Of a DNA stretch of 58,682 nucleotides, positions 28,813-55,426 are shown one piece after another (positions within the stretch are counted from its first letter, which is position 1; each line of letters begins with the position of its first letter). This DNA comes from Streptomyces sp. MS191 (GTDB lineage Bacteria; Actinomycetota; Actinomycetes; Streptomycetales; Streptomycetaceae), in NCBI RefSeq assembly GCF_008042125.1, contig NZ_RDBI01000040.1:436911-495592 (forward strand), in the 5' to 3' direction. A program made the translations under genes and the position numbers. The notes under the pieces are model-generated. The model searched no databases. It was not told the DNA's origin and was given only the letters and a program-made list of their open reading frames with translations.

Positions 28813-30042
28813 TTACAGGGCGACACCGAGCAGTGCGTCGACCGAGCGGGAGACGAGGCCGGGCGCGGACTCGTCCGTGCCGCCCTCGGCCGTCTGGGCC
28901 GCCACCCAGCGGTCGACCGCGGCGAGCGCGGCCGGGGCGTCGAGGTCGTCGGCGAGCGCGTCGCGGATCTCCTCGACGAGCGCGTCGGCCGGCAGGCCGT
29001 CGGGGCGGGAGACGGCGGCGCGCCACCGCTCCAGGCGGTCCACGGCGTCCTGGAGGACCTGGTCGGTCCACTCCCAGTCCGCGCGGTAGTGGTGCGAGAG
29101 GAGGGCGAGGCGGATGGCCGCCGGGTCGACGCCGTCACGGCGGAGCGCCGAGACGAAGACCAGGTTGCCCTTCGACTTCGACATCTTCTCGCCGTCGAGC
29201 GCGACCATGCCGGCGTGGACGTACGCCCGCGCCATGGGGAACTCGCCGGTGAGCGCCTGGGCGTGCGAGGCGCCCATCTCGTGGTGCGGGAAGATCAGGT
29301 CGGAGCCGCCGCCCTGCACGTCGAAGCCCATGCCCAGGTGGTCGAGGGCGATGGCGACGCACTCGATGTGCCAGCCGGGCCGTCCGGGGCCGAGGCTGCC
29401 GCCGTCCCAGCTCGGCTCGCCCTCACGGGCCGCCATCCAGAGCATCGGGTCGAGGGGGTTCTTCTTGCCGGGGCGGTCCGGGTCGCCGCCGCGCTCGGCG
29501 GAGAGGTGCCGCATCAGCTCGGTGCCGTAGTTCGACACCTGGCCGAAGTGCGGGTCGGCCTCGACCGAGAAGTAGACGTCGCCGTCCAGCTCGTAGGCGG
29601 CCCCGGAGTCCCGGAGCCGTTCGACCAGCGGCACGATGCCGGGTATGGCCTCGACGGCGCCGATGTAGTGCTGGGGCGGCAGCATCCGCAGCGCGGTCAT
29701 GTCCTCGCGGAACAGGGCGGTCTCGCGCTCGGCGAGGCCGACCCAGTCGATGCCGTCGCGGATCGCCCGCTCCAGGAGGGGGTCGTCGACGTCGGTGACG
29801 TTCTGGACGTAGTGGACCTGCCGCTTGGTGTCGAGCCACACGCGCTGAACGAGGTCGAACGCGTTGTAGGTCGCCGCGTGACCCATGTGGGTCGCGTCGT
29901 ACGGCGTGATGCCGCATACGTAGATACGGGCGACGGGGCCGGGGGCGAGGGTCACTCGTCCGCCGGTCGCGGTGTCGTGGATCCGGAGGTCGCGGCCCTT
30001 GCCGGGCAGGGCGGGGACCTCAGAAGCGGGCCAGGCATGCAT
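28813..30042 (-). CDS. mshC: cysteine:1D-myo-inosityl 2-amino-2-deoxy-glucopyranoside ligase
   Basis: MshC joins cysteine to the amine of GlcN-Ins in mycothiol biosynthesis, using ATP. The 409-residue protein is a class I cysteinyl-tRNA-synthetase relative without the anticodon domain. The HIGH-type motif is [10 protein letters not shown], the KMSKS loop is EKMSKSKGN, and zinc ligands appear in VCGITPYD and [12 protein letters not shown]. The length is that of MshC, shorter than CysS. I start it at the ATG 30040-30042. It is downstream of the DUF3090/kinase-like trio on the same strand, as in other actinobacteria. Confidence 0.95.
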
Positions 30043-30187
30043 GACCTGAGCGTAACCGGACACCTGTTCCGGATACGAACCGGATCCGGGATCTTGACCG
30101 ATTACGCGGTCTTGCGGGTCAGAGCCGTTCGTGCATACCCCTGGGGGGTCCCGCCCGGTCGGACGTGGTGTGGCCGGATCCGATCGG

Positions 30188-31030
30188 TCAGACGGGGGGC
30201 CAGGGGATGGCGGGCCACTGGCCCGACGGCTCCGGGTGCCGGCGGGTCCGGCGCAGGACCTCGACGCGGGCCCGCAGGGCGTCCACCTCCGCCGCGGTGA
30301 GCAGTTCCGCCAGACGGGTGGCGAGCGGCGTGCCGGGCGCGAGGGCGCCGCCGAGGCCGGCGAGGACCTCGACGGCCTCGGCGGGCAGTTCCTCGCCCGC
30401 CCAGCCCCAGAGGAGGGTGCGGAGCTTGTCCTCCACGTTGAAGGTCACGCCGTGGTCGATGGCGTACAGCCGGCCGTCCGGCGCCGGCAGCAGGTGACCG
30501 CCCTTGCGGTCGCCGTTGTTGATGACCGCGTCGAGGACGGCGAGACGGCGCAGCGCCGGGCTGTCCGCGTGCACGAGGAGCGCGGTGCCGCCGTCACCGA
30601 CCTGGGCGGGCCCGACGGCCTTCCAGCCCTCCCCCGCCTCCTCGTCCTCGGTCAGGGCGAGCAGGTTCGCGCCGGGGTCCGCCTCGATCCACAGCTGGAC
30701 CATGCCCTCGCCGTACGGGCCGTCGCGCAGCACGGTCGGCGGCACGAGGCCCCAGCCGGTCGCCTCGGAGAGCTCGTACGCGGCGACCTCCCGCTGGGCG
30801 AGGGTGCCGTCGGGGAAGTCCCACAGGGGCCGCTCGCCGGCCACGGGCTTGTAGACGCAGTCGGCCTCCCGGCCCTGATGCGCGACCGTGCAGAACAGCA
30901 CCGCGTTGGAGGCCTCGCGGACCTGGCCGCGGACGGTCAGTTCACCGTGGGCGAGCAGTTCGACGTCCGCGGCGGCGGAGGGGCCGGGCGGGACCCCACC
31001 GGACCCCCGGCCCCGGCGGCGCCGGCACAC
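30188..31030 (-). CDS. SCO1664-family kinase-like protein, N-terminus apparently frameshifted
   Basis: The core (from [13 protein letters not shown] onward) matches the actinobacterial SCO1664/TIGR03843 family, which resembles PI3/PI4-kinase-like and HipA-like folds. Candidate catalytic motifs are [10 protein letters not shown] and AIDHGVTF (metal-binding Asp). The longest intact frame begins at GTG 31028-31030, but its first residues (CRRRRGRG) look like wrong-frame translation. An ATG at 31104-31106 overlapping the DUF3090 stop (ATGA) opens another frame with a natural MTYADTPDVPAAPGDP start. Dropping one base from the C5 run at 31004-31008 fuses the two into a 305-residue protein. A mutation or an assembly error are both possible. 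Confidence 0.75.
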
Positions 31031-31064
31031 CGGGCGACGCCGGGGCCGGGGGTCCGGTGGGGTC
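30992..31064. repeat. perfect 27-bp inverted repeat inside a gene start
   Basis: Arms 30992-31018 and 31038-31064 are exact reverse complements, separated by 19 nt. The repeat sits in the variable N-terminal coding part of the SCO1664-family gene, and the frame break maps to the five-C run in the left arm (31004-31008). It is far longer than any other intragenic inverted repeat I saw in the window. Confidence 0.85.
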
Positions 31065-31102
31065 GCCGGGCGCGGCGGGCACGTCGGGCGTGTCGGCGTA
31101 CG

Positions 31103-31693
31103 TCATGCGCCGCGCCGGTATCCGTTCTGGCGCGGGCACACGTGGCCCTCGGGGTCGAGCGGCAGGCTGCAGAGCGGGCACGGCGGACGGCCGGCGTTGA
31201 CGACGTCGAGGGCGCGCTTGGCGAAGGACCGGGCCTGGGCGCCGGTGAGCCGGACGCGCAGCATCGGCGGGCCGTTCTCCTCGTCCTGGAGCAGTCGCTC
31301 CTCGGCCTCGGCGAGATCCTCGTCCGACTCGGCGTCGAGCTCGACGAGCGCCTGCGCCTCGACGATCATGCGCTGTTCCTCGCCGTCCCAGGCCAGCGCC
31401 ATCGTGCCGACCCGGAACTCCTCCTCGACCGGGGCGTCCAGCGGGGCGGTGTCCGCGATGTCGGCGGGCGCGACGGCCGGGACGGGGGCGTTGCCGCCGG
31501 TGCGGCGCACGACCTCGTCGAGGAGTTCGTCGATGCGCTCGGCGAGCGCGGCGACCTGGGTCTTCTCCAGGGCCACGCTGGTGACCCGGCCCGCCGCGGA
31601 CGCCTGCAGGAAGAACGTACGGCGGCCAGGCAGCCCGACCGTGCCGGCCACGAAACGCTCCGGTGGGTCGTAGAGGAACACCTGACGGGACAC
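31103..31693 (-). CDS. DUF3090 family protein
   Basis: A 196-residue actinobacterial protein of the TIGR03847/DUF3090 family. The N-terminal domain (SRQVFLYDPPERFVAGTVG) is a conserved beta-rich fold; the C-terminus has CPLCSLPLDPEGHVC followed by PRQNGYRRG, a likely zinc-binding treble of cysteines. It starts at a GTG with AAGGGAG upstream. It is the middle gene of a trio with the phosphatase upstream and the kinase-like gene downstream (ATGA overlap). Its function is unknown. Confidence 0.9.
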   Translation of the reverse strand: MSRQVFLYDPPERFVAGTVGLPGRRTFFLQASAAGRVTSVALEKTQVAALAERIDELLDEVVRRTGGNAPVPAVAPADIADTAPLDAPVEEEFRVGTMALAWDGEEQRMIVEAQALVELDAESDEDLAEAEERLLQDEENGPPMLRVRLTGAQARSFAKRALDVVNAGRPPCPLCSLPLDPEGHVCPRQNGYRRGA

Positions 31694-31770: not shown

Positions 31771-32460
31771 TCACGGTGCGCCCGCGCCGCCCCCGACCTC
31801 GGCCGTCCCCTGCGTGTCACGCGCCTCACGGGGGGCGAGACCGGCGAGGTCCCCGGTGTCCCCGAGGCGGAGGAGGAAGGGGCGCAGCCGGGTGTAGCGG
31901 ATGACGGTGACCGAGCAGGGGTCGACGTGGATGCGCTGGAAGAGGTCGAGGTGCATCCCGAGCGCGTCCGCGACGATCGACTTGATGATGTCGCCGTGCG
32001 AGCACATCGCGTAGACGGCGTCCTCGCCGTGCTCGGCCTCGATCCGGGCGTTCCAGTCCCGTACGGCGTCGACGGCCCGGGCCTGCATGGCACGCATCGA
32101 CTCGCCGCCGGGGAAGGCCGCGGCGGAGGCGTGCGCCTGGACGACCTCCATCAGGGGCTCGTCGTTGAGCTCGGCGAGCTTGCGCCCCGACCAGTCGCCG
32201 TAGTCGCACTCGCTGATCCGCTCGTCGGTGTGCAGCGGCAGGCCGGGGCGGGCCTCCAGGAGCGGTACGAGGGTCTCCCGGCACCGCTGCAGCGGGCTGC
32301 TGACGGCGGCGGCCAGCGGCAGGCCGGCCAGGCGCCCGGGCAGGGCGGCGGCCTGCGCGGCGCCCCGCTCGTCGAGCGCGACCCCGGGCGTCCGCCCGGC
32401 GAGGACCCCGGAGGTGTTGGCGGTGGAGCGTCCGTGGCGGACGAGGATCAACGTGGCCAT
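31771..32460 (-). CDS. histidine phosphatase (MSMEG_4193 family)
   Basis: A 229-residue phosphoglycerate-mutase-like phosphatase. The catalytic LILVRHGRS motif is at residues 4-12, the acid/base region is ERISECDYGDWSG, and the second histidine is in MCSHGDIIKS. This matches the MSMEG_4193/TIGR03848 family that co-occurs with DUF3090 and the SCO1664-type kinase-like protein. The substrate is unknown. I start at the ATG 32458-32460; the frame is open upstream but the phosphatase fold starts here. First gene of the minus-strand set leading to mshC. Confidence 0.9.
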   Translation of the reverse strand: MATLILVRHGRSTANTSGVLAGRTPGVALDERGAAQAAALPGRLAGLPLAAAVSSPLQRCRETLVPLLEARPGLPLHTDERISECDYGDWSGRKLAELNDEPLMEVVQAHASAAAFPGGESMRAMQARAVDAVRDWNARIEAEHGEDAVYAMCSHGDIIKSIVADALGMHLDLFQRIHVDPCSVTVIRYTRLRPFLLRLGDTGDLAGLAPREARDTQGTAEVGGGAGAP

Positions 32461-32629
32461 GGCGGCAAGGGTAGGGCCACGCCCGCGCGCGTGGGGCGGC
32501 GGCTTCCTGCGCGGCCGCTCGCCGGGGCCGGGGCACCGGACGGGGCACCCGACCCGGGCTCGCGCGCCGGGCCGGAGCCGGGACGGGAGGACGGGTGCGA
32601 GAAGCGGCGGAGCGGGGAACAATGACCGG

Positions 32630-54895: not shown

Positions 54896-55426
54896 ATGAG
54901 CGCCACTGACGAAATCATCGACGTCGTCGACGAGGACGACCGGGTCATCGGCCGGGCCCCGCGTGGAGAGGCCTACGCGCGGGGTCTGATCCACCGCTGC
55001 GCGTTCATCCTGGTGCGCGACGCCGAGGACCGGATCTTCGTGCACCGCCGCACTCCGACGAAGCTCGTCTACCCGTCCCTGTACGACATGTTCGTGGGCG
55101 GTGTCGTCGGCGCCGGCGAGTCCTACGACGAGGCGGCGCTGCGTGAGGCGGAGGAGGAACTCGGCGTGTCCGGACTCCCCCGCCCCGAGCCGCTGTTCCG
55201 TTTCCTGCACGACTCCGAGGGCGTCGCCGGGAAGTGGTGGTCGGCCGTGTACCAGGTGCGGTGCACGCTGCCGGTGCGTCCGCAGATCGAGGAGGTCGCC
55301 TGGCACGCCTTCCTGCCGGAGGAGGAACTGACGCGCAGGCTGGGCAGCTGGGAATGGGTCCCGGACGGCAGGGCGGCGTGGGAGCGGCTGCTCGCGTACC
55401 GGGCGACCGGCGGACCGGGCCTATAA
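54896..55426 (+). CDS. Nudix hydrolase
   Basis: A 176-residue Nudix-fold hydrolase. The Nudix box is GGVVGAGESYDEAALREAEE followed by ELGV, with all consensus Gly and Glu residues. The DEDDRVIGRAPRGEAY start resembles the isopentenyl-diphosphate isomerase-like/YfcD group. Substrate unknown. I chose the ATG at 54896; TTG four codons earlier is possible. 9 nt before the DUF202 pair. Confidence 0.9.
   Translation: MSATDEIIDVVDEDDRVIGRAPRGEAYARGLIHRCAFILVRDAEDRIFVHRRTPTKLVYPSLYDMFVGGVVGAGESYDEAALREAEEELGVSGLPRPEPLFRFLHDSEGVAGKWWSAVYQVRCTLPVRPQIEEVAWHAFLPEEELTRRLGSWEWVPDGRAAWERLLAYRATGGPGL

Follow-up and report, generated by a model that had tools for sequence, protein, structure and literature searches.

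A perfect inverted repeat and a frame break in a Streptomyces SCO1664-family gene may well be one artefact of a draft genome

In DNA amplified by MDA, inverted chimeras are the dominant error and account for 85% of 475 junctions (PMC1855051), and amplified Illumina libraries include fragments in which one end is the inverted form of the other (PMC4060946). Template switching can also occur in living cells. In an E. coli lacZ reporter, quasipalindrome mutation turns an imperfect repeat into a perfect one, with a small indel that changes the frame (PMC7202029), and a study of the comparative histories of RNA genes describes how one template-switch event can build the perfect stem of a hairpin (PMC8794818).

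Our analysis of a 58,682-nt stretch of DNA from Streptomyces sp. MS191 (the window) concerns a locus that resembles each of these systems in part. The locus matches the actinobacterial TIGR03848-TIGR03847-TIGR03843-mshC cluster in its four-gene order and in the overlap of the DUF3090 stop with the next start, but differs from it in that the overlapping start and the core of the SCO1664-family protein are in different frames (Table 1). The stop codon is a TGA at 31103-31105, and the ATG that overlaps it lies at 31104-31106. The frame that this ATG opens terminates at 30942, and the conserved core, which starts at about 30955, is read in a different frame, displaced by +1. The overlap, the early end of this frame and the placing of the core in another one had been claimed in a preliminary description of the locus, and they are confirmed here. 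Membership in the SCO1664 family is clear, with a TIGR03843 score well above the cut-off of 172.4 bits and a whole-length match (profile positions 1-253 of 253) that begins at residue 26.

Table 1. Coordinates of the features discussed, as positions in the window
Feature	Position	Strand	Basis or remark
TIGR03848 MSMEG_4193-family putative phosphomutase gene	31771..32508	-	first gene of the cluster
DUF3090 / TIGR03847 gene	31103..31693	-	PF11290 228.9 bits, TIGR03847 259.6 bits; upstream, ATGA overlap
Frame of 54 codons opened by the ATG at the DUF3090 stop	30942..31106	-	opens Ala/Pro-rich, then runs off-frame and Arg-rich to the TGA at 30942
Inverted repeat, arm 2 (27 bp, perfect)	31038..31064	.	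repeat search and inverted-repeat scan
Inverted repeat, arm 1 (27 bp, perfect)	30992..31018	.	downstream arm in gene direction; repeat search and inverted-repeat scan
C5 run (G5 on the coding strand), proposed slip site	31004..31008	+	sequence
SCO1664-family (TIGR03843) open reading frame as it stands	30188..31030	-	361.2 bits; nominal GTG start inside the hairpin
mshC, mycothiol cysteine ligase	28813..30063	-	TIGR03447 677 bits; downstream of the SCO1664-family gene

The comparison set comprised 127 other distinct homologous loci, nearly all from Streptomyces. In 126 of these, the codon overlapping the DUF3090 stop (NTG) is in frame with the core. In the remaining one, L125, a GTG start 6 nt past the DUF3090 stop is also in frame, which rules it out as a second frame-broken homologue. 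The overlapping codon is CTG in 28 homologues, and the true start there may be elsewhere with the frame unchanged. This conserved phase argues that the upstream frame is ancestral, as had been proposed, and that it is broken in the window alone. We looked specifically for the contrary pattern, in which all homologues would start downstream with no upstream frame conserved, and the homologues do not show it. The arrangement usual in the genus, an overlapping start in frame with the core, lies outside the definition of the family, and the window departs from it by +1. Judged from sequence, then, the window is the sole frame-broken case among the homologues compared. A conserved programmed frameshift is ruled out, because every homologue is in phase.

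The sequence that separates the core from the DUF3090 stop is highly variable in length and often Ala/Pro-rich when long. It is not conserved, and neither arm of the inverted repeat aligns to the relative G025. Between species, this N-terminal linker ranges from almost nothing to more than 50 codons, and its phase with the DUF3090 stop (the NTGA overlap) is constant. A sampling of the genus and of the relatives of genome G385 turned up no genome whose DNA identity across the two genes exceeds about 90%. The SCO1664-family gene is found as a single copy in all 147 genomes of the genus that are at least 90% complete.

Codon statistics place the break inside or beside the inverted repeat, with an optimum at 30995-31004 and a 2-log-unit interval of 30975-31056. 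The preliminary description had put it at the C5 run in one repeat arm; the association with the repeat stands, and the run itself is not pinpointed. At 31004 the breakpoint log-likelihood is 0.88 under its maximum, and the C5 run is compatible with the codon statistics as a slip site without being singled out by them. When one base is taken away the frames join, and the linker then reads as an ordinary A/P/G/S-rich stretch.

The perfect 27-bp repeat claimed for this site is also real as a property of the assembled sequence. Its arms pair perfectly around a loop of 19 nt, and when one mismatch is allowed the repeat search extends them to 32 nt (30992-31023 and 31033-31064, 97% complementary), leaving a loop of 9 nt. 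The next best arm in the window is 18 bp, and order-3 Markov copies of the window (n = 10) gave arms of at most 15 bp, which places the 27-bp repeat beyond chance. The RNA fold of the region has an energy of -88.9 kcal/mol (z = -8.3). A genome search allowing up to 3 mismatches matched only the two arms themselves, and a dispersed palindromic element is therefore ruled out. So is a transcription terminator: the arms sit in an operon junction and coding linker, whereas the comparable long hairpins of relatives are short-looped and are found outside coding frames.

The quality of the draft bears directly on how this repeat should be read. The assembly comprises 261 contigs, is interrupted roughly every 25 kb by a 100-N gap and also contains isolated Ns. 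We surveyed fold-backs in 800 kb of the draft (G000:C197, positions 268000-1067999), in 800 kb of the relative G025 and in 400 kb of the relative G385, both of which are more contiguous. Counting perfect inverted repeats with a minimum arm of 18 bp and a minimum loop of 15 nt, we obtained 34 in the 800 kb of the draft, with arms of up to 274 bp, versus 8 in the 800 kb of G025 and 3 in the 400 kb of G385, where none exceeds 23 bp. Among those in the draft are 30 long perfect fold-back inverted duplications of nearby sequence (arms of 26-274 bp, several mutually overlapping), and no fold-back of that size was found in the 1.2 Mb of the two relatives. Fifteen of the 30 are no more than 250 bp from a scaffold gap, against an expectation of 5%; the other half are not near gaps. 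Isolated N sites also coincide with repeats of at least 7 bp (7 of 27, versus 0.7% at random). This load of fold-backs and hairpin Ns strongly supports a slip in sequencing or assembly, which had been offered at first as the alternative to a mutation.

Inverted repeats of at least 18 bp with loops of up to 60 nt are absent from coding-like frames in about 0.9 Mb of coding sequence of the two relatives, and the draft has two such repeats besides the one at 30992-31064, both at fold-backs. Frameshift-like hits are about equally frequent in the draft (14 of 446) and in G025 (12 of 466), and most of the inspected cases look like gene-start or overlapping-frame effects, so that a general epidemic of indel errors is rejected. 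We infer that the fold-backs of the draft are artefacts and that the 30992-31064 repeat is probably among them; the draft should be treated as chimera-prone.

Three sites on the same contig stood out individually. Besides the 30 fold-backs, a further one interrupts a conserved EF-G-like gene at about 323241-323414 of G000:C197 (offset 55241-55414 counted from 268000); its perfect arms are 85 bp long and its loop 4 nt. This fold-back is a mid-gene, in-frame insertion that is not in G025, has flanks colinear to G025 and is separated by 14.6 kb from the nearest gap. At the switch ends the gene has a short repeat of its own, GACGGCGGG/CCCGCCGTC. Around 640040 the draft has NN at the centre of a perfect 20-bp repeat (AGGACCCTTGGTCCCAGCGT), and the same hairpin occurs in G025. 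Compared with G025, a conserved acyltransferase-like gene at about 363201 has a 5-bp insertion close to its start that shifts the frame.

On balance, we take the perfect repeat and the frame break to be most likely one artefact of the draft genome and not a real feature, a reading in which our confidence is moderate. The two probably share a single cause, a strand switch. Such a switch would have occurred at the GC-rich Ala/Pro linker in library amplification, sequencing or gap closing. About 27 nt would have been copied back as their reverse complement, or the hairpin would have been mis-resolved by the assembler, and the outcome would be a perfect repeat together with a length change not divisible by three. 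The real gene would most likely be unbroken: as in relatives, it would open at the ATG that overlaps the DUF3090 stop, cross a low-complexity linker and continue into the kinase-like core. We favour this account because of the density of fold-backs, the intact core of a universal single-copy gene, whose loss would be odd, and the linkers of the 127 homologues, in which no precursor quasipalindrome was found.

The comparison with MDA and Illumina fold-back chimeras (PMC1855051, PMC4060946) runs in the same direction, with some differences. Alike are the short-range reverse-complement copies joined to their source, the perfect arms, the frequent position at contig ends and the abundance of such structures in the draft. 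Unlike the typical chimera, the site at 30992-31064 is syntenic on both flanks, so that an artefact requires a return switch; the 27-bp arms and the 19-nt loop are also at the small end. Other observations count against an artefact as well. The nearest gap or N is 27.6 kb away, most fold-backs of the draft have longer arms and wider loops, and small indels in other conserved genes are few, the one clear case being a 5-bp insertion. A real change is also plausible in a linker that is by nature hypervariable and GC-rich.

The principal alternative is a real template-switch mutation in vivo: the polymerase would have changed strands where the Ala/Pro linker held a short inverted repeat, either creating the 27-bp repeat or making it perfect, and the length would have changed by a net 3n+1. 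We regard this as possible and as the less likely of the two. It comes in two versions, the correction of a single C suggested in the preliminary description or a single event that made the entire second arm, and the E. coli quasipalindrome mutations (PMC7202029) and the one-event hairpins (PMC8794818) respectively provide precedents. The coincidence of the frame break with the repeat, the ordinary composition of the linker with one base fewer and the distance of the site from assembly gaps all fit a mutation. The fold-backs that fill this assembly and are missing from relatives argue against it, as does a gene that is otherwise universal and intact.

An imperfect precursor, which the E. coli system has, is not documented for the window. 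The longest repeat arm in this linker among the other homologues is 12 bp, and the linker is too variable for the ancestor to be reconstructed, which also sets the locus apart from the RNA genes, where phylogenetic histories could be compared. In vivo correction of a quasipalindrome with a four-C arm is consequently not our preferred reading. The more general proposal that the repeat caused the frameshift fares better; a link between the two is plausible, and the coding frames of relatives lack inverted repeats of at least 18 bp. It is somewhat doubtful, in our view, that a very recent genuine template switch placed a 27-bp hairpin at the translationally coupled DUF3090/SCO1664 junction and thereby silenced an otherwise universal kinase-like gene beside mshC with its core intact. 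If it did, little or no SCO1664 protein would be made: ribosomes re-initiating at the ATG would stop after 54 codons, and the sole in-frame GTG (31030) would be buried in the hairpin.

It is very unlikely that the sequence is correct and the gene functional nonetheless, through +1 ribosomal frameshifting near the hairpin or through initiation at GTG 31030 after an upstream ribosome has opened the hairpin. The intact core with its strong profile score and the availability of that in-frame GTG are in keeping with a functional gene, and the linker appears dispensable, as homologues with almost no N-terminal extension show. However, no relative uses a frameshift, all being in phase, the GTG lies inside the -88.9 kcal/mol hairpin, and no ribosome-binding site is visible by eye upstream of it. 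Least probable of all is a genuine repeat, such as an inserted palindromic element or a regulatory hairpin, with the single base alone as a sequencing error: long GC hairpins are known trouble spots, the Ns of the draft cluster at hairpins and the frames rejoin on removal of one base, but the genome has no other copy, relatives have no copy at the site and their coding frames hold no repeat this large.

Reading the repeat and the frame break as an artefact of the draft carries a caution, as hairpins and frame breaks in this draft should not be taken for biology without the reads, with fold-backs occurring about once per 27 kb examined. If the change is real, it would be a clear natural case in which template switching disrupted a conserved, coupled gene, and the strain would serve as a natural experiment on whether the SCO1664-family protein can be dispensed with.
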